Shown: positions 13,885 to 34,230 of the stretch, one piece after another | Numbering within the stretch: position 1 is the stretch's first letter | How the letters are laid out: each line of letters starts with the position of its first letter | DNA from: Steinernema hermaphroditum | Taxonomy: Eukaryota; Nematoda; Chromadorea; Rhabditida; Steinernematidae | DNA: 64,000 nt | Direction of reading: 5' to 3' | NCBI GenBank assembly: GCA_030435675.1 | Contig: CM059621.1 | Coordinates: forward strand, 4,154,001-4,218,000 | Notes under the pieces: generated by a model | Database searches by the model: none | What the model saw: only the letters and a program-made list of their open reading frames with translations | Told to the model about the DNA's origin: nothing | Position numbers and translations under genes: made by a program

Positions 13885-14523
13885 TTATTTATTGGGAACA
13901 TAAACAGTAGGACCTTGCTCATCGGGAAAAATATTTGAAAGAACTCTCAAGTTTTCGTTTGTATTAAAAGGGGAGCAGTCAATGACCAGATAGCCAAACG
14001 GTCTTGAGACGGCGTCAGTGTACGCCTCGATTAGAAACTTTTTATTATGCGGAAAGAGTTGTCTCGCCAACGTTTTTATCATTAGACGATCCGCCAGGCT
14101 GCGCATCAGCACAATGTATGAGGTGTTAATTCGGGTTGTGCGATCTTTTGAGGCGAACAAGTTTTGCGTAATGTTTAAGATACACGTGTTCGTGTGATGT
14201 GCACCTTTTGTGAACAAGTCGTTAAGTGTTGGACTGTTTTTGAGTTCTCCCATCAGATCATCGATCACTATCAAATTCTTTTGGTGGCGATAGTCCTTGA
14301 GCGTTTCCATCGATGGCGGGCCTTGGATTAGTTTAATTTTTGGGTGTTGTGCCAGCTCGTTAAGATCATCGGTATAGATGCCGTATGCCCAAAAAATATT
14401 ATCAATCGGGGTGTCGACAACTTGATCAATGTATTTTATAAGCTTTTTGGTCCATTTTGTTTTACCGCTACATGTAGGGCCGCTAATTTGTAGAGTCCAC
14501 AGATTGCGAAATATGGGTTCCAT
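13885..14523 (-). CDS. A32/FtsK-like packaging ATPase (left-arm copy)
   Basis: 212 aa with Walker A G-P-T-C-S-G-K-T at residues 15-22 and Walker B L-I-V-I-D-D at about 84-89, the arrangement of A32-type genome-packaging ATPases of Polintons and related viruses. It differs from the right-arm copy (23,298) at residue 150 (Lys here, Glu there). The frame is intact. Whether it is expressed in this truncated arm is unknown. Confidence 0.85.
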   Translation of the reverse strand: MEPIFRNLWTLQISGPTCSGKTKWTKKLIKYIDQVVDTPIDNIFWAYGIYTDDLNELAQHPKIKLIQGPPSMETLKDYRHQKNLIVIDDLMGELKNSPTLNDLFTKGAHHTNTCILNITQNLFASKDRTTRINTSYIVLMRSLADRLMIKTLARQLFPHNKKFLIEAYTDAVSRPFGYLVIDCSPFNTNENLRVLSNIFPDEQGPTVYVPNK

Positions 14524-14737
14524 TTTTCAAACAGTATCTACAGATTACAAAGCTCTTGCTACGCTGACGATTTCTGTTCCTTATATCGCAGTTTTTACAC
14601 AGGTTAAAGGTATAGAGTTTCTGATGAAGATTTTTATAGTGGTTAGTAAATTCCTTCAGACCATTTATATAGGTATCACAAATATTACAATAGACGACGT
14701 CACACAGCTGCTCCGCAGCCATCGAGATATACAACAC
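14483..14737 (-). CDS. Small Zn-finger-like Polinton protein (left-arm copy)
   Basis: 84 aa with a C-x2-C...H-x4-H finger (C-N-I-C ... H-Y-K-N-L-H) at about residues 17-39 and two further C-x2-C pairs. It overlaps the ATPase start by about 40 nt and abuts the next gene upstream. It is the same as 23,084-23,338. Function unknown; nucleic-acid or zinc binding is plausible. Confidence 0.55.
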   Translation of the reverse strand: MLYISMAAEQLCDVVYCNICDTYINGLKEFTNHYKNLHQKLYTFNLCKNCDIRNRNRQRSKSFVICRYCLKNGTHISQSVDSTN

Positions 14738-15054
14738 TATTTGCTTGCGTTCAAAAGTGCACTATTTACAACTTTATCTTTGAGGAGGGTAAATTGCTCC
14801 AAATCAACAGTCGACGCATTTGATGAATCATTTTGATTTGAGGAAGCACGTTTGACAATCTTGTTTCGAATAGATAAGAAACATAGTACAATTGCAAGGA
14901 TCAAGACAATAATATCTGTAAGCCAGTTATTTGTCATTACAGGGTTAACCACAGCGTTTGCAAAATCCTTACAGGTAAAAGCATTTAACATGTCTTTGCA
15001 AATTCCGTTCGGACAGACAGGGGGTACTGATTCCATTGTAAGATTGGAAATCAT
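14737..15054 (-). CDS. Small single-pass membrane protein (left-arm copy)
   Basis: 105 aa with Cys-bearing N-terminal part (C-P-N-G-I-C, F-T-C), one strong membrane helix (about residues 45-63, W-L-T-D-I-I-V-L-I-L-A) and a Ser/Asn-rich tail. It is identical to 22,767-23,084. Family not recognised; a virion membrane or entry-related role cannot be told from sequence. Confidence 0.55.
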   Translation of the reverse strand: MISNLTMESVPPVCPNGICKDMLNAFTCKDFANAVVNPVMTNNWLTDIIVLILAIVLCFLSIRNKIVKRASSNQNDSSNASTVDLEQFTLLKDKVVNSALLNASK

Positions 15055-15321
15055 CAGAGATAATGTCAGAGAGTAGTAGAGATTGCGAATGATACAATTA
15101 CGAGCAATATACGTCCTTATTAGTATCCTGCTTGTATTGACGTGTAGAGGGTAGTAGAGATAGTGAATTCCTTCATTGCATGGTGGACATGTGTTGATAG
15201 ATTAGGCTTCCGGGAAGAAACGATGTTGGCTCTTACACTCACTAAAACTGTTCTTCATACGACTTTATGTTCCAGCCTGGCACTGCCGCTAGAGGTCATC
15301 AGAGTTTTAGCGTTTTAGAGT

Positions 15322-17725
15322 GTCCCGATCAGGGCTGTGCGAGTTTCGAGTTTCGAGTTTCGTAGTTTCGAGGCCTTTTTTGAGTTTCGAGTTTCGAGTT
15401 TTGGACGAAACTCAACTCGAAACTCGCCTTGGTCCTGTCACTATGATTTGGTGTACGGTGGATGATATTTACCCCTACATGCTCTGTGCGCTCTGAATCG
15501 AACGCCGCTTTATGCGAATTTCACCATGGGAAGCTCCATCTACGATGACTTCTTCGACACAGATGTCGTGAACGGAAAGGCAACTTGTAAAGAATGCAAG
15601 AAGATACTTTCAAGAAAGCAAGGAAGCACATCGAGCATCCTGAAGCACCTGGAACTTCACCACCAGAAACTGTATGAAAAATTTCAAGAGCGGAAAGTGG
15701 ATCCAGTTCGCAAGAAGCGGAAGCTTGATGCTCAAACTCCGTCTATTACCGCTGCGTTTGGTATGATCTTGCTTATTTCATACCGTACTATTCTTATTCA
15801 GAAGCATGGCGACCGGGAGGAACGAAGTCGGAATCTATCAACCGGGCACTATCACTTATGATTGCGGTTGATTCTCAGCCCCTTTCGATGGTCGATAGGC
15901 CGGGATTCCGAAATTTCATGAAGACTGTCGTACCAAACTACAGCATAAAGTGAGTCGAGTGGTGGTTTCACTTGACGATACGACTATGTTTAGATCACGA
16001 ACAGCAATTTATCGTACAGAAATTCCTGCCCTTTATGATGAATATGTAGAACGTGTCAAGAGAAGGATGGAATCTGTCAAATACTTCTCGTTCACCTCGG
16101 ATTCGTGGTCTTCGGAAGACAACAAACACTCACTTCTGTCTCTGACAGCACATTGGATGGCAGCTGGAAAGCTGGAATACCGTATCCTTGGTGTGCTGCC
16201 GATCCACGGAAGACATACAGGCGAGAATCTTTCCGCAATTCTCTCATCGTGCCTGGCAGATTTCATTGGAGAAGATGCTCGAAAAAGGACACATCTGATC
16301 GTTCGAGATGCAGCGACTGTCATGAAGAAGACTACGAGGCTATGTGGATTGACATCCGTAGATTGTTTCGCCCATAAGATTCAGCTGGTGAGTTGTGAAG
16401 CTCTCTATTATGCATCAGTGGTTGGTTTAGGCGGTGTACAGCGGAATAAAGACTGTTTTGAATGATTGCGAATACTTCGACGACGTCATCGAGCGCATCA
16501 AGAAGTTCATCCGCAAGGTGAGGAAGTCGGGGAACGACCGAGACGACTTTGCCGACCTCCAGAAGCTGGAAGAGGTTCACCCGCGCTGGCTGACGAAGGT
16601 AAACATTCCAGCATCATAGCGGTCTTCCATTACCGTACTCTAGGGAATCGACATCCGTTGGGTTCGCTTTACGACATGCACGACAGGTTCCTCGAAAACC
16701 GCTCGACTATCTCATCGTTCCTGATTGGCCGCAGCAAATATCCTCAGTTCACTTCTGGTGACTTCCTGTTGGTGGAGAAGATCCTGTCTGCCCTCAAGCC
16801 AATGAAACAGACTGTTATGCTCCAGGGTCGACAAGTGACCATTTCTGTAGTAGTCCCTACGATCTATGTTCTTCGACGTGCACTTGTCGGTGGAACTGAA
16901 CTCGGTCGCGGCATCCTTGATGACTTCGAAGACCGTATCCGTGGCATCGAGGACGACCCTTTATATGTTGTAGCAACGATGCTCGATGTCAGATTCAAGC
17001 GAGACTTTATCGAGGAGGAACGAAAGGAGAGTGCCGCTCGCATTCTTGAAGCTGAAGCTCACCAATTCCTCGCGAATATTGTGGTGCAAGAGAAGACAGC
17101 GGATCGCAGTCCATCACCTGAGGTCGCCATCAACAACAACACTCAGGCCATTTCGTTTTTCGAGCAGTACCGGTCCACGCAGAAGCCCGACGACCTTCCA
17201 TGCTCTCCCCCGATCGACGAGAAGCTTAAACTTGTCATCGTGAGTTAGACATTCTGCAGCGTGATATTGCTTGTGCTTCTTTTTAGGAGCTGCAACGATA
17301 TCTGGCTGAACCAGCCCAACCGTCTGCCGATCCAGTGCTGTACTGGTTTGCTACAGAAAATGTTATTAAGTTCCCTACGCTGTCACTACTGGCCCAGAAG
17401 TTTCTGTCGTCTCCCGCTACATCGGTTGAGAGCGAGCGTCTGTTCTCCACTGCTTCCCTGGCCCTGACGGAGCTCAGAAGATCTATGGCTGTCGAAAGTC
17501 TTCAGAAACTGCTATTCCTCAAACTGAATGTGCCGTTGGAAGATTTTTTCGCATGATTACTTGTAATGCATGCTTTCTACTTTATAAACCGGTGAAGTTT
17601 CGACTTTCGAGTTTTTGGAGGTAAGTTTCGAATAGTTTCGAGTTTCGTTTCGAGTTTTTTAAAAAAGTTTCGAGTTTCGAGTTTCGACTTCCGAGTTTCG
17701 AGTTTCGCACAGCCCTGGTCCCGAT
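15322..17725 (+). mobile_element. hAT transposon, complete copy with 8-bp target duplication
   Basis: The element spans 15,330-17,717 (2,388 bp) and begins CAGGGCTGTGCGAG, ending in the inverse CGCACAGCCCTG. It is flanked by the perfect 8-bp duplication GTCCCGAT at 15,322-15,329 and 17,718-17,725, diagnostic of hAT insertion. Subterminal regions are arrays of GTTTCGA units. It sits just downstream of the polymerase gene of the Maverick. Confidence 0.95.
15526..17556 (+). pseudogene. BED-finger hAT transposase with one frameshift (left copy)
   Basis: Six exons can be placed: 15,526-15,760, 15,802-15,949, 15,994-16,387, 16,431-16,598, 16,644-17,239 and 17,287-17,556, with consistent phases. 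The N-terminus is a BED zinc finger (C-K-E-C ... H-x4-H), the centre has the S-D-S-W-S-S and C-F-A-H-K motifs of the hAT catalytic core, and the C-terminus is the hAT dimerisation domain (S-V-E-S-E-R-L-F-S). Exon 5 is one nt short of a whole frame: the reading changes at about 16,660 in a run of G, so the protein is broken unless this is a sequencing error. The same lesion is present in the right copy. Confidence 0.85.
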
Positions 17726-17823: not shown

Positions 17824-20173
17824 TTACATTTTATACCCGAACGGGAAAACTCTTTCATCTCCATTTAAACGTACACCTTTCTTATTTACAGGGAGGTATT
17901 TTTTTGAACGCATGACCGTTCTTATGAGTTGAAGATTTGTCCTTACCATGTATGGGTTGCTGGCGCTAATCGCCTCATAGCTATCACCTCTAATTTCTGC
18001 TTCAATTAAATTTTTAAACGTTTCAATGTTTATCGTATCGATGGTGTTTGAGTTTAGTGTTAACCCTCGAAGTTTTAATGTTTCTTTTCCATCTGCTGTT
18101 TTAAAATAATATTGTTTTGCGCCACCGGCGTAAAACTCTACAATATGTGAACCGCCAATTTCGTCTGTGTACATTCCTAGATAGTTACCCGTAACATCCG
18201 CTAGGGGATCCTGACTATTTTTATCTATTACATATATACAACTGTCTGTGTCTGTGTACATTACTTTATCGCCCAATTTCTCTACAGCATTGAGTAGGTG
18301 CAGACGTGCTGCGCTAGTAGTAAAAATGGCAATGGGCAGACTCCCGTTTTGGTAACATGTCTCATATATACCCGTTGGTTTGTATGATACCATACAGACA
18401 TCTCCAATCTCTCTAATACCGGATACTTCGTTTTTATCGTCCGCCAATATGGCCCACAATTCTTCACTAGTGGAAACAAATTGCGTTTTATTCAAAATTC
18501 CTCTTTGTCCAAATTTTCCCCAAAAACTGTTTAGCATAATTTTTGCAATGGCTTTAAGCCCTGGATTTTTAGAGACGTTTTCCAGTAAAATACCTTCTTC
18601 TCTAGCATAATCGTTAATATATGTTTGAATTTCAGCATCTGACATACCCTCCGACGGTAAGCCTGATGCCTCCTGCTTAATTTTTACAAAGTTGTTAATG
18701 TATCCACCAAATAGACCGTTTTGACCAATTTGGGACCATCTATTCCAGTGATATACTTGAAAAATTTGGAATATCGTGTAACCTCTGTTTAAAGCATGAT
18801 CCAATTCTAAATGAGTCCATGTACCACGAAGAGCTCTTTGTTTTTGGGAGTGTCTACATTTTGTTTTTGATTCGTTCTTACTGCATGTGAAACATAGCGA
18901 AAAGTGGAGAAACCCATTAACTTTTACAGGTAAAACAGGATGTAATAAATTTTGAGGAGTATTCACTTCACAATAAATTAAACCCTTATATCCACATTCC
19001 CATAGACCCGATACTAAATTTCTTTGTGGTGGTTTAAAGTCTTGACTGATAATACGTGGCGAACCGAGAGGATACGAACATGTTCGATTAATGAAAGGGT
19101 ATAAACTGGTGACATCCTTGTAAAGAGCAATTTTATCTGGATTTTCGCTTTGTACAAATCTCATAATGTTCACAATGGTTCTCCCACCGGCGAAAGCATC
19201 ACGGGGTATAAGATAACACATTGCGTGTGCATTATCTTTGAAAAACTGTCTCATTTTTGGATTATTCTTTAATTTCTCATCAATCTTACACGTCCAAATG
19301 GATTCCAGATTGTAGCCTGCTTTGATCAAATCTATTTCCCTAGTCATTGTTTTTTCATAGTTTGAGTTGTGGTTAATTTTACGGTGAGCAAAATCGCTGA
19401 CTTTAAAACAATGTCTACAACCATGATATATACATCCGTACACTTGTTTGACCTTTCTTGTTTGGGATTTTACATCTTAAACATTCCAAACCACATTTAT
19501 GTTGTATAATACTAAAGACAAAATGAAGACATTTTTTGCAAAATGCTCTATTACGAAGTCTATCCAAATCTGACACTGTGTGATAATGATTGCCAATTCT
19601 GGTGATATAAATTTGTTTTTCTGTTTCAAAGTTGTCCAAATGCCACACAATAGGCGAAAAGCACTTGTCGGAGTGTTCAATTTTTTTAGAGTCTACCACA
19701 AGAATTTTATAAGTCATACCATAGTAGTGTTGGATTTTCTCCAAGACGTCCAAACCGTACTCATCCAAGTCCAGAGGAACATTCACACTCGTCAAAAGCT
19801 CCCTAGCCTCCCTAGTTTGGGTATGTGAAGTTGTTTGCTTTATTCTCTGAACTTTTTTATCTACGTTCTTGTAAGAAGGGTCCTTGTATTTTAAACATTT
19901 TCGGTCGGCAATCGCCTTCCCCACGACTATAGCCCTAGCAAGGCACCATTTATCCTTGGGATTGTGTATTTGAATTATAAACTGATCATTGATTGAAATA
20001 CTATCGTTTTTTTCCACACCTGCCCCCGCAGGTTTTTCCATAATAAAACCGTATAGTTCCATTTTACCGTCTAGTGTTACATTTGATTGCATTACCTTTT
20101 CTATGGAGTTGGCCATGGTTTGACCTGAGATTTGGTCATGATTTTTTGAGAAATGAAATATAGGTTCTGTCAT
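17824..20173 (-). pseudogene. Protein-primed DNA polymerase B of the Maverick, broken
   Basis: Two minus-strand frames (20,173-19,415 and 19,443-17,824) make up this gene. The first holds the Polinton N-terminal region with C-x2-C clusters. The second starts near the G-C-x3-H-G-C motif and contains polymerase motif A (V-T-S-L-Y-P), the protein-priming type insertion (G-T-W-T-H-L-E), motif B (K-I-M-L-N-S-F-W-G-K-F) and motif C (Y-T-D-T-D-S). The frames change at about 19,460, and no 3'-5' exonuclease D-x-E motif is found between them. About 790 codons remain against roughly 1,000 or more for the family, so an internal deletion plus frameshift is inferred. The N-terminus lies 33 nt from the palindrome junction and may also be cut. 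Confidence 0.85.
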
Positions 20174-20205
20174 CCCTTGATGATTAAAGGTGAGGCGGCA
20201 TCTTT

Positions 20206-22499
20206 TCTCGAAAGTCGAAACTTCACCGGTTTATAAAGTAGAAAGCATGCATTACAAGTAATCATGCGAAAAAACCTTCCAACGGCACATTCAGTTTGAG
20301 GAATAGCAGTTTCTGAAGACTTTCGACAGCCATAGATCTTCTGAGCTCCGTCAGGGCCAGGGAAGCAGTGGAGAACAGACGCTCGCTCTCAACCGATGTA
20401 GCGGGAGACGACAGAAACTTCTGGGCCAGTAGTGACAGCGTAGGGAACTTAATAACATTTTCTGTAGCAAACCAGTACAGCACTGGATCGGCAGACGGTT
20501 GGGCTGGTTCAGCCAGATATCGTTGCAGCTCCTAAAAAGAAGCACAAGCAATATCACGCTGCAGAATGTCTAACTCACGATGACAAGTTTAAGCTTCTCG
20601 TCGATCGGGGGAGAGCATGGAAGGTCGTCGGGCTTCTGCGTGGACCGGTACTGCTCGAAAAACGAAATGGCCTGAGTGTTGTTGTTGATGGCGACCTCAG
20701 GTGATGGACTGCGATCCGCTGTCTTCTCTTGCACCACAATATTCGCGAGGAATTGGTGAGCTTCAGCTTCAAGAATGCGAGCGGCACTCTCCTTTCGTTC
20801 CTCCTCGATAAAGTCTCGCTTGAATCTGACATCGAGCATCGTTGCTACAACATATAAAGGGTCGTCCTCGATGCCACGGATACGGTCTTCGAAGTCATCA
20901 AGGATGCCGCGACCGAGTTCAGTTCCACCGACAAGTGCACGTCGAAGAACATAGATCGTAGGGACTACTACAGAAATGGTCACTTGTCGACCCTGGAGCA
21001 TAACAGTCGCCTGTTTCATTGGCTTGAGGGCAGACAGGATCTTCTCCACCAACAGGAAGTCACCAGAAGTGAACTGAGGATATTTGCTGCGGCCAATCAG
21101 GAACGATGAGATAGTCGAGCGGTTTTCGAGGAACCTGTCGTGCATGTCGTAAAGCGAACCCAACGGATGTCGATTCCCTAGAGTACGGTAATGGAAGACC
21201 GCTATGATGCTGGAATGTTTACCTTCGTCAGCCAGCGCGGGTGAACCTCTTCCAGCTTCTGGAGGTCGGCAAAGTCGTCTCGGTCGTTCCCCGACTTCCT
21301 CACCTTGCGGATGAACTTCTTGATGCGCTCGATGACGTCGTCGAAGTATTCGCAATCATTCAAAACAGTCTTTATTCCGCTGTACACCGCCTAAACCAAC
21401 CACTGATGCATAATAGAGAGCTTCACAACTCACCAGCTGAATCTTATGGGCGAAACAATCTACGGATGTCAATCCACATAGCCTCGTAGTCTTCTTCATG
21501 ACAGTCGCTGCATCTCGAACGATCAGATGTGTCCTTTTTCGAGCATCTTCTCCAATGAAATCTGCCAGGCACGATGAGAGAATTGCGGAAAGATTCTCGC
21601 CTGTATGTCTTCCGTGGATCGGCAGCACACCAAGGATACGGTATTCCAGCTTTCCAGCTGCCATCCAATGTGCTGTCAGAGACAGAAGTGAGTGTTTGTT
21701 GTCTTCCGAAGACCACGAATCCGAGGTGAACGAGAAGTATTTGACAGATTCCATCCTTCTCTTGACACGTTCTACATATTCATCATAAAGGGCAGGAATT
21801 TCTGTACGATAAATTGCTGTTCGTGATCTAAACATAGTCGTATCGTCAAGTGAAACCACCACTCGACTCACTTTATGCTGTAGTTTGGTACGACAGTCTT
21901 CATGAAATTTCGGAATCCCGGCCTATCGACCATCGAAAGGGGCTGAGAATCAACCGCAATCATAAGTGATAGTGCCCGGTTGATAGATTCCGACTTCGTT
22001 CCTCCCGGTCGCCATGCTTCTGAATAAGAATAGTACGGTATGAAATAAGCAAGATCATACCAAACGCAGCGGTAATAGACGGAGTTTGAGCATCAAGCTT
22101 CCGCTTCTTGCGAACTGGATCCACTTTCCGCTCTTGAAATTTTTCATACAGTTTCTGGTGGTGAAGTTCCAGGTGCTTCAGGATGCTCGATGTGCTTCCT
22201 TGCTTTCTTGAAAGTATCTTCTTGCATTCTTTACAAGTTGCCTTTCCGTTCACGACATCTGTGTCGAAGAAGTCATCGTAGATGGAGCTTCCCATGGTGA
22301 AATTCGCATAAAGCGGCGTTCGATTCAGAGCGCACAGAGCATGTAGGGGTAAATATCATCCACCGTACACCAAATCATAGTGACAGGACCAAGGCGAGTT
22401 TCGAGTTGAGTTTCGTCCAAAACTCGAAACTCGAAACTCAAAAAAGGCCTCGAAACTACGAAACTCGAAACTCGAAACTCGCACAGCCCTGATCGGGAC
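20206..22499 (-). mobile_element. hAT transposon, second copy, truncated at its 3' end
   Basis: This is the mirror of the left hAT. Its 5' terminus is intact (ends at 22,491) and is followed by the same target-site octamer in reverse (ATCGGGAC, 22,492-22,499). The 3' terminus, with about 105 nt of TTTCGAG-rich subterminal sequence, is missing: homology stops at about 20,206 next to the polymerase start. The identical target site shows that it was copied together with flanking Maverick DNA and did not insert independently. Confidence 0.93.
20262..22295 (-). pseudogene. hAT transposase with frameshift (right copy)
   Basis: Same six-exon plan as the left copy, on minus. It retains three nucleotides lost in the left copy (an extra Ala in the K-Q-A-T-V-M stretch) and has Gly for Asp near the C-terminus. 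It shares the one-nt frameshift in the exon 5 equivalent, so that lesion predates the inverted duplication. Confidence 0.85.
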
Positions 22500-22766
22500 A
22501 CTCTAAAACGCTAAAACTCTGATGACCTCTAGCGGCAGTGCCAGGCTGGAACATAAAGTCGTATGAAGAACAGTTTTAGTGAGTGTAAGAGCCAACATCG
22601 TTTCTTCCCGGAAGCCTAATCTATCAACACATGTCCACCATGCAATGAAGGAATTCACTATCTCTACTACCCTCTACACGTCAATACAAGCAGGATACTA
22701 ATAAGGACGTATATTGCTCGTAATTGTATCATTCGCAATCTCTACTACTCTCTGACATTATCTCTG

Positions 22767-23084
22767 ATGATTTCCAATCTTACAATGGAATCAGTACCCC
22801 CTGTCTGTCCGAACGGAATTTGCAAAGACATGTTAAATGCTTTTACCTGTAAGGATTTTGCAAACGCTGTGGTTAACCCTGTAATGACAAATAACTGGCT
22901 TACAGATATTATTGTCTTGATCCTTGCAATTGTACTATGTTTCTTATCTATTCGAAACAAGATTGTCAAACGTGCTTCCTCAAATCAAAATGATTCATCA
23001 AATGCGTCGACTGTTGATTTGGAGCAATTTACCCTCCTCAAAGATAAAGTTGTAAATAGTGCACTTTTGAACGCAAGCAAATAG
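22767..23084 (+). CDS. Small single-pass membrane protein of the Maverick
   Basis: 105 aa: short Cys-containing N-terminus, a membrane helix at about residues 45-63 and a polar tail. First gene of the plus-strand block, 1 nt overlap with the next start. Product unrecognised; see the mirrored copy at 14,737. Confidence 0.6.
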   Translation: MISNLTMESVPPVCPNGICKDMLNAFTCKDFANAVVNPVMTNNWLTDIIVLILAIVLCFLSIRNKIVKRASSNQNDSSNASTVDLEQFTLLKDKVVNSALLNASK

Positions 23085-23338
23085 TGTTGTATATCTCGAT
23101 GGCTGCGGAGCAGCTGTGTGACGTCGTCTATTGTAATATTTGTGATACCTATATAAATGGTCTGAAGGAATTTACTAACCACTATAAAAATCTTCATCAG
23201 AAACTCTATACCTTTAACCTGTGTAAAAACTGCGATATAAGGAACAGAAATCGTCAGCGTAGCAAGAGCTTTGTAATCTGTAGATACTGTTTGAAAAATG
23301 GAACCCATATTTCGCAATCTGTGGACTCTACAAATTAG
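23084..23338 (+). CDS. Small Zn-finger-like Maverick protein
   Basis: 84 aa with one C2H2-like finger and extra C-x2-C pairs (L-C-K-N-C, V-I-C-R-Y-C). Its 3' end overlaps the ATPase start by 41 nt, which argues for a compact virus-like transcription unit. Function not known. Confidence 0.55.
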   Translation: MLYISMAAEQLCDVVYCNICDTYINGLKEFTNHYKNLHQKLYTFNLCKNCDIRNRNRQRSKSFVICRYCLKNGTHISQSVDSTN

Positions 23339-23936
23339 CGGCCCTACATGTAGCGGTAAAACAAAATGGACCAAAAAGCTTATAAAATACATTGATCAAG
23401 TTGTCGACACCCCGATTGATAATATTTTTTGGGCATACGGCATCTATACCGATGATCTTAACGAGCTGGCACAACACCCAAAAATTAAACTAATCCAAGG
23501 CCCGCCATCGATGGAAACGCTCAAGGACTATCGCCACCAAAAGAATTTGATAGTGATCGATGATCTGATGGGAGAACTCAAAAACAGTCCAACACTTAAC
23601 GACTTGTTCACAAAAGGTGCACATCACACGAACACGTGTATCTTAAACATTACGCAAAACTTGTTCGCCTCAAAAGATCGCACAACCCGAATTAACACCT
23701 CATACATTGTGCTGATGCGCAGCCTGGCGGATCGTCTAATGATAGAAACGTTGGCGAGACAACTCTTTCCGCATAATAAAAAGTTTCTAATCGAGGCGTA
23801 CACTGACGCCGTCTCAAGACCGTTTGGCTATCTGGTCATTGACTGCTCCCCTTTTAATACAAACGAAAACTTGAGAGTTCTTTCAAATATTTTTCCCGAT
23901 GAGCAAGGTCCTACTGTTTATGTTCCCAATAAATAA
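23298..23936 (+). CDS. A32/FtsK-like packaging ATPase
   Basis: 212 aa. Walker A (G-P-T-C-S-G-K-T, residues 15-22), Walker B (L-I-V-I-D-D-L, 84-90) and a following T-x-x-L-N-I-T-Q-N sensor-like strand fit the Polinton/adintovirus packaging ATPase that drives genome entry into capsids. Length is near the family norm and the frame is intact. It lies directly before the small conserved ORF, the order usual for Polintons. Confidence 0.9.
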   Translation: MEPIFRNLWTLQISGPTCSGKTKWTKKLIKYIDQVVDTPIDNIFWAYGIYTDDLNELAQHPKIKLIQGPPSMETLKDYRHQKNLIVIDDLMGELKNSPTLNDLFTKGAHHTNTCILNITQNLFASKDRTTRINTSYIVLMRSLADRLMIETLARQLFPHNKKFLIEAYTDAVSRPFGYLVIDCSPFNTNENLRVLSNIFPDEQGPTVYVPNK

Positions 23937-24275
23937 TTGTTAGTAATGACACGTCTTTTGAAACATTTGCAATTTTTGCTCAAAATTGCAAAAAGTGAAA
24001 CGGATACAGCAAGATTAAACTTGTTAAAGAAAGCGTCACCTGAAGAAATTGCTTGTCTCATTGAATGCGCTTACAATTTGCTAAATCATAAAGTACCCCT
24101 AAAAGCAAAAGATAAAAAGCAACTCAAACCATGTGCAGATTGTATTCGTAAATTGGCCAAGGAAAGATCACCCAAAAACGCTAGGAAACTAATTATTCAG
24201 AACGGTAACGGTGCATTTATCGGTTCACTGTTGATTCCTATACTGTCGCTGGCGGCTAGTCTCCTTAAATCATGA
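23937..24275 (+). CDS. Small conserved Polinton protein
   Basis: 112 aa, helical and Lys-rich with a hydrophobic C-terminal patch. It starts immediately after the ATPase stop, and its stop overlaps the next ATG by 4 nt. It matches the short Polinton ORF of unclear virion role described for the left-arm copy. Confidence 0.7.
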   Translation: MLVMTRLLKHLQFLLKIAKSETDTARLNLLKKASPEEIACLIECAYNLLNHKVPLKAKDKKQLKPCADCIRKLAKERSPKNARKLIIQNGNGAFIGSLLIPILSLAASLLKS

Positions 24276-25243
24276 AGCACGCAAAAAAGATGCGTCTAAT
24301 TCCATATGATATGGATTTTTCGTGTAAAAAGTGTTCTCTTTTGGATGAAGCAAATAAAATTATTCACGATATGCTCAGTGTACTAAATGCAAAGACTCCT
24401 GCAGATGTCAAAATGCAGAGATATCGCTCTCTTTTGCAAAAACTACAAACGTGGAAACAAAAAGAGAAACAAGAGATCGAAAAACCAGTTCCTGTTGCAT
24501 TTGAAATACCCGATAAGCAACCGTTTGTATCTACATTTCCAGATCATGAAAACCCCATTATAGTCCCAACACAAGATCTCAAAAAAGATGAGAAAATAAA
24601 TGTATCCACTCTCCCATCAATGATTGCAAACCGCGATGAGGAAGAAGAAATGTTTTTTACCCCTCAAAAACAACCACTAGACGTTAATCAAACACCTCTT
24701 TCTATTACACATACAGGCATACCTCTGGATTTGTCAACGCCAAACGAGCAACAACGACAGCTTTATAATGATACGGGTGATGAGGGTGACAATGATGAGG
24801 AGGACGTTATTCCAGAAAAAGTGACCAAAAGGAAAAGACCAATAATTGTAGATACTGCATGGTCAAAGTCCAAAACTCCCAAATACAAACGTAAACCTGT
24901 CTCTAATAACTGGAAAACACCACATCCAAAGAGGGAGCGTGAGCAAATTGTTACTCCTTCATTAAAGGATGTGGATACGCCAACACGTACACCAATAGCA
25001 AAGAAGGCAAGACCTATAGAAAACTCAAATGTTAACGATTCCGATGAGCATAGTGAAGATCAAATAGTAAACAGTAAGCTGACTGGTAAGCGGCAAACGG
25101 AGTCTGGAATACCTAGAGCAAAGAATACACCTATACACAAAACAAAATCCACGCCCAGTTTACGTCTTGATTCTCGTCCACAGCGTACCAGAAAACGCAA
25201 TACAAATGTAAGAAATCGCGATATTAAAGTAAAACTTTGGTAA
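24272..25243 (+). CDS. Polinton KKM-type protein, full copy
   Basis: 323 aa. The N-terminus has K-K-M-R-L-I-P and a C-x2-C pair (C-K-K-C, residues 18-21), followed by a predicted coiled region (about 22-70) and a long Lys/Glu/Pro/Thr-rich, probably disordered C-terminal half. The K-K-M-x-L-(V/I)-P start is a hallmark of a common metazoan Polinton protein of unknown function. The palindrome's right arm ends inside this gene at about 24,808. The 23-nt stretch at 25,094-25,116 recurs at 32,105. Confidence 0.7.
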   Translation: MKHAKKMRLIPYDMDFSCKKCSLLDEANKIIHDMLSVLNAKTPADVKMQRYRSLLQKLQTWKQKEKQEIEKPVPVAFEIPDKQPFVSTFPDHENPIIVPTQDLKKDEKINVSTLPSMIANRDEEEEMFFTPQKQPLDVNQTPLSITHTGIPLDLSTPNEQQRQLYNDTGDEGDNDEEDVIPEKVTKRKRPIIVDTAWSKSKTPKYKRKPVSNNWKTPHPKREREQIVTPSLKDVDTPTRTPIAKKARPIENSNVNDSDEHSEDQIVNSKLTGKRQTESGIPRAKNTPIHKTKSTPSLRLDSRPQRTRKRNTNVRNRDIKVKLW

Positions 25244-25255
25244 ATTATCGTTTCA

Positions 25256-26335
25256 ATGTCTGTTAATAAACTATTAAAACAGCTTTATACCGATCCCAAA
25301 GCAGGATATACGGGAAAGGAACTTTTATATAAGCGTGCCAAAGCACAAAACCATAAAGTAACCAGGAGAAATGTACAAGATTTTCTTGTAACGCAGGATT
25401 CTTATACACTCCACACTCCTCTACGTAAAAAGTTTGTACGCAACAAGACAAGAGCAGATGGACTTTTTAGTCACTTACAAGTCGATTTGGCAGATATGCG
25501 GAATCTAAAAGCATACAACGACGACTATAGCATGATTTTTACGGCGGTGGACGTCTTTTCACGCAAGGCATTTGCTATACCCCTAAAATCGAAACGTCCC
25601 ACTGAAATCAAGAGAGCTTTTGAAACCATTACAGAAATGGAAGGTGGTTGGTCGTTGCAGAATGTAATTTCCAACCAGGGTACAGAATTTTACAATAGCG
25701 TCATTTCGGACTATTTTGAGCAAAATTTTGTGAAACACTATTCCGTGTTCAACAATTTAAAAAGTGCTCAAGTGGAAAGGTTAAACAGAACAATCAAAGA
25801 ACGCTTATATCGCTATATGACGGCCAAATCCACAAACAGATGGATAGATGGGTTAGACGACGTTCTTTATAATATTAATCATACGCCTAATAGAACAACA
25901 GGTGTTGTTCCTGCAGACGTTAACTTTGAAAATGCACACCAACTGTTGGGAAAACCTCAAAACGTCCAAAACAAAATCAAATTCAAATTCAACGTCGGAG
26001 ACGCTGTTCGTATCGCAAAATACAAGACCCTATTCAGTAAAGGTTACATTCCCAATTTTACGTATGAGATATTTTATATCAAAGAGCGACTACCGAGGAC
26101 ACCACCTGTCTATCGTATTACCGACTACTCAAAAGAGGAAACCATCAGAGGTGTCTACTACGAATCGGAACTTATCAAAGTGTATGCAGAGAGTAAAGCA
26201 TACCGAATTGAAAAGGTGCTAAAAACCAAAACAGTTCGAGGTCATAAAGAGTATTTTGTGAAATTTTTGGGCTATAGAGACGTCCACAATGCTTGGGTTA
26301 AAGAGTCAGATATAGTATCTGTGGTCGATACATAG
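25256..26335 (+). CDS. Maverick retroviral-type integrase with chromodomain, catalytic Asp changed
   Basis: 359 aa. The integrase core runs about residues 70-235, with the first acidic residue in H-L-Q-V-D-L (Asp77) and the last Glu in Q-V-E-R-L-N-R-T (Glu174). The second catalytic Asp, expected just before Q-G-T-E-F, is Asn140. A C-terminal chromodomain (about 313-355, Y-R-I-E-K-V-L ... V-K-F-L-G-Y) is typical of Polinton integrases. The enzyme would normally join element ends to host DNA. With Asn140 it is predicted inactive. The frame is otherwise whole, and it follows the KKM-type gene by 12 nt. Confidence 0.92.
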   Translation: MSVNKLLKQLYTDPKAGYTGKELLYKRAKAQNHKVTRRNVQDFLVTQDSYTLHTPLRKKFVRNKTRADGLFSHLQVDLADMRNLKAYNDDYSMIFTAVDVFSRKAFAIPLKSKRPTEIKRAFETITEMEGGWSLQNVISNQGTEFYNSVISDYFEQNFVKHYSVFNNLKSAQVERLNRTIKERLYRYMTAKSTNRWIDGLDDVLYNINHTPNRTTGVVPADVNFENAHQLLGKPQNVQNKIKFKFNVGDAVRIAKYKTLFSKGYIPNFTYEIFYIKERLPRTPPVYRITDYSKEETIRGVYYESELIKVYAESKAYRIEKVLKTKTVRGHKEYFVKFLGYRDVHNAWVKESDIVSVVDT

Positions 26336-26352
26336 TTTATTGTTATCCTTGT

Positions 26353-28016
26353 GTGTATAAAATCATGTTGTCTCATCATGATGACTATTATCTGGTACTT
26401 CCCTCCAATAGTATGGCTACAAATAAAGCATGTTCATTTACAACAAATTTACCGGATACGTTAAATTTTAATACAGGCCGGTGGGAAATTGGTCTTGCAT
26501 CTTTAATCTATCCAAAAAGTTTTGAAAATCTCAAAGGAGGAAAGGAATATATCATAATCAATACAAGAGGTGAAAAGTCTCTAAAAACGCATATACCCGG
26601 TGGTAATTATACGTCGCCCACCGAACTTATTACGCTTCTAAATGATCAAATTCGGCAAACCGAAAAACTGACAAATAGACTAAAACGTAGTATACCTACG
26701 TATGAGGATGTAGATGGAGACGACATTGTAGATGATGAGGAAGTGGATGAGAGTGCCCCACGACAGTCCTTTGATCCTTTCTCTGGTATTTCTATGGATG
26801 AAATTCCTGAAAAGAGAACAAAAAATCAAAATGGAGATACTGGTGAACATGTAAGCAAACAAGACGCCAAGAATACAGTAGATCCTTTTCAAGGTGGTGA
26901 ACACGAGAAACTCCATGAACCATTTAAAACACCTGACAAACAAGATTCACTAAAGGAGAAACTCCATGACCCTTTTGAAACACCTGACAAACAAGATCCA
27001 GTAGAAGAGAAACTCCATGAACCGTTTGAAACATATGATGAACAAGGTCCGCTAGAGGAGAAAGAGGAACTCGTCTCAAAAAGCGTACATGAACCTATAC
27101 AACAACATTTACAAGATCCATTTACCACAAGTGTACCTGAACAAGAAACACTGCAAGATCCGTTTGCCACAAGTGTACATGAGCAAGAAACAATGCAAGA
27201 ACCATTTGTAAAAGAAGTAGAAAAAGAAAAAGAAGAGAAAGAAAAAGAAGAGAAAGAAAAAAAGAGAAAGAAGTGTTGGAGGAAGAAGAGAAAGAAAAAG
27301 AAGAGAAAGAAAAAAAAGAGAAAAAAGTGTTGGAGGAAGAAAAAGAAGAAAAAGAGGAAAAAGAAACCCAAGGCACGCTTTTGCAAGATCCCTTTACAGA
27401 TCCACTAGCAACAAACGAAATACGTAAAGAAAGCGAGTCAAAAGTCACCTTGACAACACACGATCCCTTTGGATCTTTGCAATCAAATGATTTCTTTTCT
27501 GCTTATACGGACAATTCTTATTCAATTATCGATGCACAAAAACTTGAATATATCAGGAATCAGGAAAAGAATTTTACAGGGCTTGTCAAACCCACATATC
27601 ACAATCGTCTGAATAGATTTGTTTTTATTATCAATAGTAAGCGTGTCTCATCGATTGTCTTATCAAAAGGTTTGGCCTATATGCTTGGCTATCCTGTCCA
27701 AAAGTTGACACGTAGTTTACACGCTTCAACAGTCATTGATTTCACCGACGGGAACCATTCGCTTTTCATTTATTCCAATATTTGTGACCTTTCAATTGTT
27801 GGTAATACCCGATCCAATCTACTACGCATCGCAAAGATCTCAGGCCAATATGGCGACGTGATTAGTGAAGATTTTAACCCTATACACTACGTTCCGGTTT
27901 TGACAAAAAACGTGCAAACAGTGGACATTAAGATTTGTGATTCAACCGGTAGCCTAGTAGACTTTCAATATGGGAATGTAACTGTCGTTTTACATGTGCG
28001 TAAGAAAATGATATAA
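26353..28016 (+). pseudogene. Large Polinton structural-type protein with frameshift in Lys/Glu tract
   Basis: The N-terminal half (26,353-27,260) has L-P-S-N-S and G-R-W-E-I-G-L-A-S-L-I-Y-P, hallmarks of a widespread Polinton protein thought to be virion-associated. Then come repeats of a D/E-P-F unit and a Glu/Lys-rich low-complexity tract. The C-terminal half (27,273-28,016) is in another frame and ends in a strand-rich domain (V-T-V-V-L-H-V-R-K). The frame changes within the A/G-only tract at about 27,250-27,275, so a one-nt slip or assembly error is likely. The joined length would be about 554 codons. Whether it is a capsid, penton or tegument-like part cannot be decided from sequence. 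Confidence 0.65.
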
Positions 28017-28254
28017 TAAACGTTACCTTTTTGGAGCGATCGATTTTTGGTTGACTTTGCTGAGGTGTGTTGTTGTGTGCGTGCGCGCACGCATTGTTTC
28101 GCGCGCGCCGCAGCGCCGCTATGCTGAGGTCTGAGTGTTGTGCGAGTACACATTATGGAGAGCTTTGCGCGCGACTTTTGTCTACTCCTTATCGCTTTTA
28201 TTAGCACATTTATCATTCACTGTTTACACTCATTAGGAGAGGATAATGCACATA
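28017..28254. other. Convergent-gene junction, GC-rich
   Basis: Plus- and minus-strand Maverick gene blocks meet here. The stretch at 28,075-28,130 is unusually GC-rich with alternating GCGC (GCGTGCGCGCACGC). No gene seen; possibly a terminator or structural element. Confidence 0.4.
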
Positions 28255-28673
28255 TTACAAAGAATGGAGCTCGATTCCTGTATTTTGAGGAGGCACACGT
28301 TTGTTTGTACGTGTGCAGAACCATTCGAACAGACGAGTTAACAAGTAACAAAACAATGTAAGCAAGATCAAAATGATGATTAGCAGAATCATCCAGTAAT
28401 TTTCGTTGCGGAAACGCTCGGTTTCCTGACGATTCTCGACCATGTTTAGTGAGGTATCCTGTAGTAGAGATAGAATACGCTCTTGATCTGTCACAAGATC
28501 GGCACAGTAGATCTTCTTTTCAATGTTGCAAATTGTACCTAGAAACCCTATAAAATGGCGCTTGTATCGTTGTCTTTGCAGTAGCTGGACACACCTTCAG
28601 GGCACCGACAGTAGTACATTGAGTGGCGTTTACTGTAGAACATTGTCCCACCGTTCATGCAGGTTGTATTCAT
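28255..28673 (-). CDS. EGF-like/Cys-rich single-pass membrane protein 2 (Maverick cargo)
   Basis: Proposed minus-strand exons are 28,673-28,595 and 28,538-28,255, a 56-nt intron (GTGTGT..TTTCTAG) in phase 1, giving 120 aa. Exon 1 encodes N-T-T-C-M-N-G-G ... Y-Y-C-R-C-P-E-G, the pattern of an EGF-like module although the third Cys position is Met. Exon 2 adds two more Cys, a helical stalk, a membrane helix (about residues 75-95, M-I-L-L-I-I-I-L-I-L-L) and a basic tail. No signal peptide is visible. A TTTTAG acceptor lies 6 nt before the ATG and could be a trans-splice site. It resembles the neighbour at 29,005 in size and plan. Alternative: the unspliced 41-codon frame 28,673-28,548 alone. Confidence 0.5.
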
Positions 28674-28699
28674 GGCTTTCTAAAACGTATGAGTTATTA

Positions 28700-29004
28700 G
28701 GTTGAAGGAAGGGTCACAAAGTTAGGAGCTAGCGACACACACATACGCATATATGTACGATCAGACAGACTTTTGTGTCTGGCATAGCGAGGTTTTTGTT
28801 TATCTGTTAGAGCACGATAACCGATAAAGAAGAGGGCGCTAGCCGACAAAGAAGGATAAAACGATAACATCTGCCCTTGAGGGAGGACGGGGGAGTAAAC
28901 GAAAGTGTACACATTATGATAACAAAACAAAACGTGCATTTCCAACAGATGTACAACAACAATAAACTTTCAACAAGAACAACAAATTTAAAGGTTGCGG
29001 GGTT
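28700..29004. other. Gap between the two EGF-like genes
   Basis: No gene recognised; it presumably holds the promoter of the downstream EGF-like gene. Short frames lack motifs. Confidence 0.35.
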
Positions 29005-29424
29005 CTAAACACTGTAATCGAGAAGCAGATCTTTTGCCGTTGAGGCGGTCGAGACAGACGAGATCTCCTCTTCCTCTTCTTTATTCTCCAAGGGAAACCA
29101 TTCCCGCTTCTTTTCCTGGACGATGCTCTTGACACTCTTGAGTTTTTCTCCAATTTTTTCACGGTGGCGGTACCCGTAAAGGAAGAGAGGCAGAAGGATA
29201 GCTCCTAGGGTCAGGAGGATCAAAACGACCTTATACTTGTAATATGCGAGGTAAGGGTTCTCGATCTAAAGCATTCTTTTTGCGATTACAAAATGACATG
29301 TACACCTAACCTGACAGAGATATCCGATCCACTCCGAAGGACATGCACAGGCCTGAATATCTTCACGTCCAGCTAGGATACGGCACTGGCCGCCATGTCG
29401 GCATCTCAGAGAGCAGATAGCCAT
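29005..29424 (-). CDS. EGF-domain single-pass membrane protein 1 (Maverick cargo)
   Basis: Minus-strand exons 29,424-29,311 and 29,265-29,005 flank a 45-nt intron (phase 0, GTTAGG..TTTAG) and encode 124 aa. Residues 4-37 form a full six-Cys EGF pattern, C-x3-C-x5-C-x13-C-x-C-x8-C, with the usual G-G before the third Cys and W-x-G-Y before the last. A membrane helix follows (about 49-68, V-V-L-I-L-L-T-L-G), then a Lys-rich and Glu-rich cytoplasmic tail. No signal peptide precedes the EGF. A TTTCAG lies one nt before the ATG, fitting SL trans-splicing, or an undetected upstream exon. EGF modules are not part of the core Polinton set; receptor binding is inferred only. Confidence 0.62.
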
Positions 29425-29560
29425 TCTGAAATACGCCAAGTGGTACTAGAAGCTAGATCAAAAAGGTGTGGGAATATGTTCTCTAATGGGTAATTGTTCT
29501 GCTTCTTTGACCGACGAACGAGCATTGCTTTTTAAACTGTACCGTATACCTTTTAACATC

Positions 29561-29980
29561 TCATTTATTCAAGTGAAATTTGTGACGTTTGTTCATGTAT
29601 GACACAATGAAATCGTCGTCGTTATGTATAGATAAAAACTTGTCAAGGACGGATTTAAACGTCTTTTTACGACTCATCTCACAGATAAAGTAGACACAAA
29701 AACCACCACAGGTTACAGTTTGATCGCTTTGGTGTTGCACCTTGTTATAGTAGATTGTAGATTTTGCATATTGTTTAGTGAGAAATTGTGTAATCTCTGG
29801 GAGAGGTTTTCTTCCCAGACTGTCAAAATAGTAGCATTCGGCTATTGACCTGCGTCTTATTTTAACCATTATAGCAAGCCAGTGGATTCCTCCTATTCCT
29901 TGACTGTTTCCATATTGATCAGGAAGACAAGCGTCCGTATTTAGAACAAAAGAGTAACACTTTGTAGTGGGATCAATCAA
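29561..29980 (-). CDS. Adenain-like cysteine protease of the Maverick
   Basis: 139 aa from this ATG. The catalytic set of adenovirus-type proteases is visible: His33 in G-I-H-W-L-A, Asp53 in Y-Y-F-D-S-L-G, Gln84 and Cys91 in T-C-G-G-F-C, with the seven-residue Gln-to-Cys spacing seen in adenain. In Polintons this enzyme is thought to mature capsid proteins. The family is usually about 200 aa. The frame stays open about 16 codons upstream of the ATG into the 3' end of the capsid gene, ending at a stop, so the N-terminus is short or overlapping and may be truncated. Confidence 0.85.
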   Translation of the reverse strand: MIDPTTKCYSFVLNTDACLPDQYGNSQGIGGIHWLAIMVKIRRRSIAECYYFDSLGRKPLPEITQFLTKQYAKSTIYYNKVQHQSDQTVTCGGFCVYFICEMSRKKTFKSVLDKFLSIHNDDDFIVSYMNKRHKFHLNK

Positions 29981-29993
29981 ACGGAGCTGATCT

Positions 29994-31068
29994 CTACAAA
30001 ATGTTCCGATAAAGAAACGTTAAAGAAACGATATCTGTCGTGACTGTTCTGTTTGCGTCGATACTTAGGATTCCATGAAACTCTGAATCCACAATAGCTG
30101 TAATTCCACCGGTTGGGATAGGTTTTTGAAACTCCATTCGTAACGAGGTGGTTCCTGCCTGGATAAGGTCAAAGTTCTCACCGTCAGAATTGGGGCTAAT
30201 ATCAGAGACGAAGAGTGTGAAACCGTTTACATAGTTTTTTAGATTAATCCCAATAGATGTGTTACGATCGGCAATGTTTAGACCTTCATAGAGTTGTACA
30301 AAGCTTCGCACATAGCTATTATTTTCAAAGTCGAGATCGATACGGCTATCGGGAAAGTTTTTACCGTTGGCGTCTACACTAACATGTTTGAGTCCAAAAG
30401 GCATAAACCTCAAGCAGTCTTTATTGAGTTTCCCGTGAAACGCTTCTGTGGAGACAAGTCCAACAATGATACGTCTCGGTACTGTTGTATTGTGTATAAC
30501 TGTAGGTGCTAGTTGGTAGGAGCCTGCAGGAATGTGCAGTGTGCGCATTTGTACATTTTTTATGGGATATTTTAGTTGGTGACCTGATGCTAGTGTCTTT
30601 TCGAGAGCCAGTGAAACGCTATCCAGCAACTCCACTTCTCTAATGTACAGTTTCATTGCCTCAAACTCTATTCGAATGTCTTTTGGTTCTTGAGACATAT
30701 CCATTAAACACATCTCGTCGTTATTTCGGTAAATTATAATTTGTAAGTCCATAAACGATGGAAGTAAACGACCACTGGAGCAAATGTTCAAGTGCTTGGA
30801 TGGTGCTCACATTTGCCGAAGGCTCAATGTCTGTCCCATCTACATTTTTGACTTTGAATTTTACGTACAAATAGTTTCGACTGAGATCCAAAAAGTTTTT
30901 AGAGTGCATATAGCGAAAGATAAAAGGTCCCGCATTGTTTATTGGTGATTCCAGATGGATTTCACGAAATTTATGACCCGTAATAGATACTTCTGTTGGA
31001 GGAATAGAGAAGAAATCAATTTCTGAGGGAATAGAAGGTGTGGAATTTTTATCAATGAGTTTAGCCAT
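29994..31068 (-). pseudogene. Polinton capsid-type protein (F54H12.2 family), internally deleted
   Basis: Two overlapping minus-strand frames, 31,068-30,721 and 30,791-29,994, match consecutive but non-adjacent parts of the F54H12.2-like family, the probable double-jelly-roll major capsid protein of Polintons. The N-part has the F-x-I-P-P-T-x-T/V-S-I and N-A-G-P-F-x-F-R-Y motifs. The C-part has the F-E-N-N-S-Y-V-R-S-F-V-Q-L-Y-E-G and L-R-M-E-F motifs. About 95-110 residues that normally lie between are absent and the frame shifts at about 30,750, so no full capsid protein can be made. Family assignment is from memory of conserved motifs; MCP versus minor capsid is not certain. Confidence 0.75.
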
Positions 31069-32947: not shown

Positions 32948-33904
32948 TTACAATGATGGTCGATAGCGTAGAGGATTTCTCCTTCGTTTACGACTGGATG
33001 TCGCAATAGGGTGATATAACAAGTAGGGATAAGCTTCTGGTGTAGAAACTACATTGATTAGGGGTACCCCTAGAAAAAGAACAGGAAAATCAATACAGAG
33101 TCTATTATAAATATGGAAAACCCTAATTAGTTTACCGCTACTGTAGTGTCTTATGTAGAATGTGGTGTGTGTTTTGTTTTTTATTCTGGGACATATGAAT
33201 TCTAATGAGTCTGATCTTTTAACTGTTAGGGAATAATAGAAATTTTTTAGGGTATCGTGCTGGACAATATGTTCTAGAAACTTTTTAATCATTAGTGTTG
33301 TAAAGGGGAGTTTCTCTCCCTCTATGCTACAGTACTCAATAGATAATGTTTCAATTGGGTTGATCATAATTTTCTGGAAGAATTTTTCTTTTGTTACACC
33401 GTAGAATGCACAACGGTAAAAATCTATGCGTTTCAAATTTGGATAACTTAACATTTTTTGAACAAAATCAAAATCTAAAAAAGTTGTTTGATCGGCTGTC
33501 ACTTGTTCAAATTCTGTCTCAAAATCCAAGTACGTAAACTGCGTTTGATTATTAATCCTAATGGTTCTGCATTTCATAAAGTGTGGGATTTCACAGGCTG
33601 TTGCTAAACTTATACCACAAGAAATAATGAACTCGTCAAGGTGTACTTTCATGTAGTCTGTCATTTCTGTGTATTCTATAATAAAGTTATCGGGCATTCT
33701 CTTAAACACGGTAAATTTGGGTTGGGTTGAACGAAGATAGTAGATACAAGTTGTGGGTGCATAGAGTTGAAGATATGAGATTACAAGGCCATCAAGTCTT
33801 TTTGTCATGAACCTACATTTGTAAATATCGTGTGGTCGCAGATAGTTAAATATATGAAAGATAACTTCACCAGGAAGGTTTACCACATTTGTTGATTGCT
33901 TCAT
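32948..33904 (-). CDS. F-box protein (Maverick cargo)
   Basis: 318 aa. The N-terminus is an F-box (about residues 9-45: L-P-G-E-V-I-F-H-I-F-N-Y-L, then C-R-F-M-T-K-R and L-Y). The rest is a long leucine-poor, aromatic-rich region similar in plan to nematode FBXA/FBXB proteins, whose C-terminal part recognises targets. F-box proteins bind Skp1 in SCF ubiquitin ligases. Its stop lies just inside a GTAAGTATCC donor-like sequence, but no phase-compatible downstream exon was found. The start overlaps the previous stop as ATGA. A capture from a host genome is the simplest explanation. Confidence 0.75.
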   Translation of the reverse strand: MKQSTNVVNLPGEVIFHIFNYLRPHDIYKCRFMTKRLDGLVISYLQLYAPTTCIYYLRSTQPKFTVFKRMPDNFIIEYTEMTDYMKVHLDEFIISCGISLATACEIPHFMKCRTIRINNQTQFTYLDFETEFEQVTADQTTFLDFDFVQKMLSYPNLKRIDFYRCAFYGVTKEKFFQKIMINPIETLSIEYCSIEGEKLPFTTLMIKKFLEHIVQHDTLKNFYYSLTVKRSDSLEFICPRIKNKTHTTFYIRHYSSGKLIRVFHIYNRLCIDFPVLFLGVPLINVVSTPEAYPYLLYHPIATSSRKRRRNPLRYRPSL

Positions 33905-34230
33905 GTTGACCTAAATAAAAGAGGTATAGATGAACTTGCGGTTTGTATGTGGCGATCCTTAGGTTGGTTATGATGTGAAGCAGACGGTACTGGCAAGATT
34001 GATTTGAATCGATGGTTGGGTAAAGTATCTGGCAATAGGGTGTTGATGAACTTGGAAATTGGTAGAGAGAGACAGTTGTACAGGCGCTGAGAGTGATCAG
34101 TTGTGGGTGTTTCCCCGCTAGAACCTTGGGCAATCTCGTTTTTAATTAACATGCTAATAAACCTCTTGTCCTTGACTTTGTTTTTCAATATTGTGTAATA
34201 TTGCCCTATTATTGTTGACAGCTTCCGCAC
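33901..34230 (-). CDS. Small ORF upstream of the F-box gene
   Basis: 109 aa, Ser/Pro/His-rich towards the C-terminus with no recognised domain. It is supported only by its 4-nt stop/start overlap with the F-box gene and its position at the end of the cluster. It could be the 5' leader. Confidence 0.3.
   Translation of the reverse strand: MRKLSTIIGQYYTILKNKVKDKRFISMLIKNEIAQGSSGETPTTDHSQRLYNCLSLPISKFINTLLPDTLPNHRFKSILPVPSASHHNQPKDRHIQTASSSIPLLFRST

Follow-up and report, generated by a model that had tools for sequence, protein, structure and literature searches.

Two small genes that lie side by side on the minus strand of a Maverick element of the nematode Steinernema hermaphroditum look like an accessory module of one Maverick subfamily. 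The reading that we prefer makes gene A and gene B a pair coding for type III membrane proteins with EGF-like heads, which would be made together with the capsid genes and would likely serve in adhesion; we give it a probability of about one half. Mavericks reportedly carry genes from one nematode species to another, and how they get out of one cell and into the next is at issue. Were this reading true, a compact EGF-like pair tied to the capsid block would be a concrete and testable cell-binding candidate for one lineage. The analysis bore on a stretch of 64,000 nucleotides (C1:4154001-4218000), the window in what follows, with positions counted from its first letter. A preliminary description had proposed two adjacent minus-strand genes, each with an EGF-type head, a small intron, a membrane helix and a charged tail, and had placed them in a Maverick. 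The layout is present as stated, and the core genes of the element, found by Pfam, confirm its carrier.

This element was taken as positions 13003 to 34300 of the window (21.3 kb). A Pfam profile search makes it a Maverick by its core gene set, with a polymerase B, an integrase, a DJR capsid protein, an A32-type ATPase and an adenain-like protease. The genes discussed below are as follows.

17827..20230, minus strand: two overlapping frames of a DNA polymerase B of the protein-primed type (PF03175, E 2.7e-26)
22785..23084, plus strand: gene C, 99 aa, with a short CPNGIC head, a membrane helix and a charged tail, and no EGF pattern
25244..26332, plus strand: integrase with chromodomain (PF00385 above cut-off; rve E 2.5e-5, below cut-off at 24.9 against 32.6 bits)
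26302-28016, plus strand: gene that we take to be PY-like, in a block with the integrase and facing genes A and B
29561..30019, minus strand: adenain-like cysteine protease, directly upstream of gene A (Pfam C5 and C48 below cut-off; PF00770 17.8 against 21.3 bits)
29994..31068, minus strand: two overlapping frames that encode the DJR major capsid protein (PF21738, E 8e-7, 29.0 bits against a cut-off of 27)

The A32-type ATPase (PF04665, 22.7 bits against a cut-off of 22.8) is present in two copies, one in each of two inverted arms. It was accepted, as was the protease, despite a score below the cut-off because the neighbours of both are other core genes; homologues of the protease are found in other Maverick remnants of the same genome. 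For the capsid protein, a set of 5.8 billion proteins gave two matches at E <= 0.001, both from Steinernema glaseri with 63% identity, and IMG/VR scans with the capsid protein, the integrase and the polymerase gave no relative, a weak negative. The arms (13003-17611 and 20207-24818) are 4.6 kb long and 99.8% identical, and they hold the ATPase, gene C and a hAT-like transposase. Between them sits the polymerase gene, the flanking sequence of which is presumably hAT-like. These internal arms are the only inverted repeats seen and, since the left one stops inside a gene, the duplication looks like a rearrangement rather than a terminal repeat. The second copy of gene C is at 14737-15036 on the minus strand; the two arms are its sole places in the genome. 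Several frames of the element are broken or overlap, so that this Maverick may be inactive at present. The PY-like gene shifts frame within a Lys/Glu-rich, partly tandem-repeated stretch; its first frame found no family match in the search and its second found weak ones. An F-box-like protein gene also lies inside the Maverick (32951-33910; PF12937, E 3.4e-4, below cut-off), and it is possibly a ubiquitin-pathway gene of host origin.

The two genes of the pair are laid out as follows.

29005..29424, minus strand: gene A, 124 aa, EGF-like single-pass membrane protein in two exons (predicted gene structure)
29311..29424, minus strand: gene A exon 1, the N-terminus and the six-Cys EGF head (Cys4 to Cys37, 29415-29314)
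29266..29310, minus strand: 45-nt intron of gene A (GT...TAG); without splicing, its final codon is an in-frame stop
29005..29265, minus strand: gene A exon 2, the membrane helix, then a basic and then an acidic tail
29173..29229, minus strand: predicted membrane helix of gene A, residues 51-69 (Kyte-Doolittle peak of 2.53 over a 19-mer)
28255..28673, minus strand: gene B, 123 aa, EGF-like single-pass membrane protein in two exons (PDB sequence matches)
28595..28673, minus strand: gene B exon 1, the bulk of a four-Cys EGF-like head
28548..28594, minus strand: 47-nt intron of gene B, or 56 nt with an alternative in-frame acceptor that lies nine bases further on
28255..28547, minus strand: gene B exon 2, the end of the head, a 45-residue stalk, the membrane helix (28392-28336) and a basic tail

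The head of gene A reads C4-x3-C8-x5-C14-x11-C26-x-C28-x8-C37, which is the full six-cysteine spacing of EGF; gene A is the one that bears out the earlier claim of a complete pattern in one of the two genes. Its intron follows C6, in phase 0. In the window copy, exon 2 lacks an in-frame ATG, and the unspliced frame stops at the last codon of the intron; combined with the selection on exon 2 reported below, these features lend indirect support to splicing. In a sister copy, also described below, exon 2 has one ATG, placed inside the helix (L56M). An extra 5' exon could exist for gene A from about 29556, adding six residues and no hydrophobic stretch.

In gene B, splicing out 47 nt rebuilds CRCPEGFLGTIC, an EGF C-terminal signature (EGF_1 and EGF_2) that is absent from the unspliced sequence, whereas the 56-nt variant loses three residues of the signature. 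The intron is for this reason probably 47 nt long: of the two lengths advanced in the preliminary description, the 45 nt of gene A stands and the 56 nt of gene B should probably be given up. The head of gene B keeps four of the six EGF cysteines (C2, C4, C5 and C6), with a methionine at C3 and no residue for C1. As EGF disulfide bonds join C1 to C3, C2 to C4 and C5 to C6, the two missing cysteines are exactly mutual partners, and the other two bonds would still be possible. The stalk contains an additional cysteine (Cys41), and others lie beside the helix, which covers residues 79-97 with a Kyte-Doolittle peak of 3.02 over a 19-mer. The heads of A and B are 33% identical over 33 aligned residues. 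The intron of gene B falls between C5 and C6, in phase 1; with introns placed differently in the two genes, A and B are not the product of a simple tandem duplication of recent date. Three frames upstream of gene B were considered as signal-peptide exons and set aside. Those beginning MPDTKV and MCTLSF lose their ATG in the sister copy; that beginning MLSFYP keeps it, but its best donor joins the acceptor out of frame and a 4-nt indel lies further on, and it was dismissed by inspection.

How firmly can these heads be called EGF-like? The EGF_1 C-terminal signature of PROSITE is present in both genes, in gene B only once spliced. As a chance control, 150 Markov-1 sequences of the length of the element (21.3 kb) were read in six frames. 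In the element itself, the six-Cys pattern with EGF_1 at its end is found a single time over the six frames, and none of the 150 simulated sequences has it; per simulation, the six-Cys pattern alone averages 0.007 occurrences, and EGF_1 alone 0.047. EGF modules are also the best matches of both heads in PDB sequence searches, in which the lower rows include unrelated proteins. For the head of gene B the EGF module of t-PA comes at E 1.9e-4, with u-PA and neuregulin also among the closest; for that of gene A the matches are weak, with an EGF module of Notch1 at E 0.008 and TGF-alpha at E 0.019. Pfam EGF models score both genes below the curated cut-offs (14.5 against 21.5 bits for B, 12.8 against 22.1 for A), and a fold model of the gene A head, made with no alignment, has low confidence (pLDDT 63.9, pTM 0.30). 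The EGF label accordingly stands on the pattern and on the similarity to PDB sequences. Judged by its sequence, gene B is related to EGF, yet it has no canonical EGF domain. Ordinary EGF repeats of the host match weakly (gene B against C5:13804214 with 33% identity at E 9e-4; the search with gene A at E 0.014). In the 5.8-billion protein set, no homologue of A or B was found at E <= 10 (20 and 15 candidates examined, respectively), a weak negative, as the same set gave two matches even for the capsid protein. Over the whole 64-kb window, EGF_1 matches unspliced sequence five times; four of these matches are outside the element and probably belong to host EGF genes.

A search of the genome (90.6 Mb in 60 contigs) with the DNA of the pair recovered one sister copy, at C3:11245209-11246076 (region L054), 93% identical over 866 of 1170 bases. 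The neighbours are the same in both copies, with the integrase and the start of the PY-like gene on one side and the protease on the other. Deletions have removed from the C3 copy about 2 kb, from the PY-like gene into the gene B intron, taking away exon 2 of gene B, as well as most of the protease. There, gene A is open over all of its 124 codons, and the GT and TAG of its intron are kept. Between the two copies gene A differs by 34 substitutions, 21 of them at third positions, with 12 amino-acid changes against 22.3 expected; none of 5000 simulations had 12 changes or fewer, and the NG86 estimates are dN 0.050 and dS 0.294. In exon 1 the four substitutions are all synonymous and none of the 38 residues of the head is changed. 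Exon 2 alone has 12 amino-acid changes for 30 substitutions (P 0.0013; 0.0005 jointly with the lack of a stop). The frame of gene A has been kept under selection in both exons, as seen in this one pair of copies. The proposal of EGF-like, single-pass membrane proteins that are accessory to the Maverick core is supported. For comparison, 12 of the 106 codons in the shared piece of the integrase are changed, 9 of these silently. Exon 1 of gene B has a single substitution in 79 nt, too few for a test of selection. The divergence of gene A exon 2 (30/261, 11.5%) is higher than that of the surrounding non-coding sequence (25/499, 5.0%; Fisher P 0.0017, in a comparison picked after the data were seen). 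Over half of the changed codons in this exon are silent, and its divergence might be explained by a tract that recombination brought in from some more distant relative.

The same copy is the sole relative found among the Mavericks of the genome. Eleven Maverick regions (L054-L064) were compared by blastn and by tblastn with A and B, and among the matches listed the sequence of A or B is present in L054 only. Genome-wide searches with A, with B and with the DNA of the pair produced specific matches in no other place than the window and C3, apart from those to ordinary EGF repeats. Two regions are informative on absence: L058 and L059 have a piece of the protease with a readable stretch of other sequence behind it, and the pair is absent there among the matches listed. 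L059 is the next nearest element, with capsid pieces that are 67% and 78% identical and a protease that is 54% identical. In L055 and L056 a retroelement-like frame starts about 170 nt behind the protease, and no clean absence can be read. The protease pieces of L060, L061 and L063 break off into other sequence, and L057, L062 and L064 are remnants; these six are uninformative on absence. The conservation in related Mavericks that had been envisaged thus holds for one sister copy and fails for L058 and L059. A pair that is present in the sister copy yet absent from these two regions is best read as the accessory of one subfamily. EGF-like C-x-C frames in L055 (2610-2855) and in L059 (about 7092) were judged to be due to chance, with no full pattern and no helix. 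Seen by eye, the retroelement-like frame of L055 and L056 is long and gag-pol-like, and the capsid-protease piece is present twice.

The placement of the two proteins in a membrane can be predicted from hydropathy and charge, used here without a topology predictor. Each has a single hydrophobic region, the helix, and no signal peptide. In the 15-residue flanks of the helix, A has six K+R on the C-terminal side against two on the N-terminal side, and B has a net charge of +3 against -1. With the helix as the sole hydrophobic segment and positive charge behind it, a type III protein is predicted, which suggests that the N-terminus of A and of B, with its head, would be outside. Signals that may bear on expression are the following.

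29426..29431, minus strand: TTTCAG acceptor-like site, 1 nt before the ATG of gene A
28680..28685, minus strand: TTTTAG acceptor-like site, 6 nt before the ATG of gene B
28197..28202, minus strand: AATAAA, the sole AATAAA/ATTAAA in the 155 nt from the stop of gene B on

The 331-nt interval that separates A from B contains no AATAAA or ATTAAA. TTTCAG would be a trans-splice acceptor, or the cis acceptor of an unseen 5' exon. Of 11 gene starts compared, those of A, B and the F-box gene have a clear acceptor-like site, that of a 112-aa frame has a weaker one, and seven have none, that of the capsid gene included. Acceptor-like sites followed by a single AATAAA after B fit a trans-spliced transcript unit and, given the position behind the capsid and protease genes, we infer late expression and a role in binding or attachment. 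In this scheme A and B would be N-out, C-in proteins, their EGF-like heads exposed outside the cell or on a membrane used by the virus and their charged tails held inside. They lie directly behind the genes for the capsid protein and the protease, in the same orientation, and share a poly(A)-like signal; they would probably belong to the same late programme, their transcript being perhaps matured by splice-leader trans-splicing. The head may bind a partner, either a surface protein of the host or the head of the other gene, adhesion being its most likely job, and a particle or an infected cell could in this way attach to a neighbouring nematode cell. Splicing, topology, co-expression and binding are all putative here, read from the DNA.

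Proximity to the capsid protein and protease might also mean that the pair has a part in assembly, as inner-membrane proteins that recruit membrane to the capsid shell or link the capsid to it. We consider this unlikely. Disulfide-based EGF heads form in an oxidising lumen or outside the cell, not on the cytoplasmic side where capsids are, and L058 and L059 carry capsid genes without the pair, among the matches listed. To be sure, a precedent exists in SGIV, a DJR virus with membrane-linked minor capsid proteins (PMC10090177); its VP38 and VP88 are, as A and B would be, virus-encoded membrane proteins tied to a DJR capsid, and an EGF head is not mentioned for them in the excerpt of that source.

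If A and B are instead adhesive, as we prefer, a link to the entry of the element is possible. The bolder proposal, distinctly unlikely as it stands, is that A and B, perhaps with gene C, constitute the attachment and entry apparatus of a Maverick lineage devoid of a large fusogen. Such a surface module would be EGF-like and dependent on splicing, and made up of two proteins with fewer than 125 residues each. Nematode Mavericks with a putative fusogen and with wosp/krma cargo have been reported (work by Widen, as given in a meeting report, PMC10680173). The present element has in common with them a Maverick backbone with extra membrane-related and cargo genes; it differs in that its membrane genes encode two very small EGF-like proteins, and among its frames no large fusogen was recognised. 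In the literature searched by title and start of abstract, a scope outside which the main nematode Maverick papers lie, no EGF-like surface module linked to Mavericks or Polintons was found, and within that literature the pair is modestly novel.

A small size, a single helix, the lack of a signal peptide, a basic stretch after the helix and, in B, cysteines beside it would also suit fusogens of the FAST kind, which are small N-out/C-in proteins with cell-fusing activity and would here replace a large fusogen. No long frame of the element was recognised as a glycoprotein, which favours such a replacement, with the proviso that one could still be encoded by spliced exons or by the frame of 324 aa at 24269-25240 (no Pfam match). 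We hold this reading to be quite improbable. EGF heads are not known to act as fusion peptides. A and B start with MA and MN rather than with the MG of N-terminal myristoylation, and the amphipathicity of their tails is ordinary, equalled by 661 of 2000 shuffles for A and by 1536 of 2000 for B. FAST proteins of reoviruses and rotaviruses, as described in the excerpt of PMC12724187, share with A and B this general plan, including the basic juxtamembrane tail; A and B differ from them by an EGF-like head and by the lack of a myristoylation start and of a clear amphipathic tail.

The preliminary description had also thought of EGF ligands of the poxvirus type. A and/or B would then act as virokines: in imitation of an ErbB ligand of the LIN-3 type, they would stimulate host growth signalling, as poxvirus growth factors do. 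One EGF module near a membrane helix is indeed what they have in common with poxvirus growth factors and with EGF, TGF-alpha and LIN-3, closely so in A, the head of which ends 13 residues before the helix, and less closely in B, where the distance is 45 residues; TGF-alpha and neuregulin, as noted, are among the PDB matches. By contrast, the details that define such ligands are missing. ErbB ligands and poxvirus growth factors start with C1-x7-C2, where A has a spacing of x3 and B lacks C1. In front of the sixth cysteine A has leucine (GYLC) and B isoleucine (GTIC), where TGF-alpha has arginine in the alignment (GARC), and the splice site comes after C6 in A or between C5 and C6 in B instead of between C4 and C5. 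Neither protein has the signal peptide of such ligands. This arginine and the C4/C5 splice site are given as marks of ErbB ligands in the excerpt of PMC1618406, according to which the splice site is a mark of cellular ligands and some ligands lack the site or the arginine. The proposal fails on the arginine, on the C-x7-C start and on the splice site, and is highly improbable. The EGF modules of t-PA, u-PA and neuregulin, close as they are to the head of B in sequence, are likewise different from it: B is without C1 and C3, and its head is N-terminal in a single-pass membrane protein.

The pair might consist of EGF genes taken from the host and carried along as neutral cargo, or of functionless chance frames. 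This reading is very unlikely in view of the selection on both exons of gene A, of EGF signatures far above chance and of the same place in two copies, even though no homologue was found, host EGF repeats match weakly (E 9e-4 and E 0.014) and nematode Mavericks do carry host cargo (excerpt of PMC10680173).

An adhesive pair confined to one subfamily would, if true, suggest that these elements swap membrane genes between subfamilies and retain their capsid genes. Other small membrane proteins, different in sequence from A and B, are encoded elsewhere: L055, L057 and L058 have a frame of 102-104 residues between the integrase and the PY-like gene, and in L058 a frame with a single helix lies beside the ATPase.
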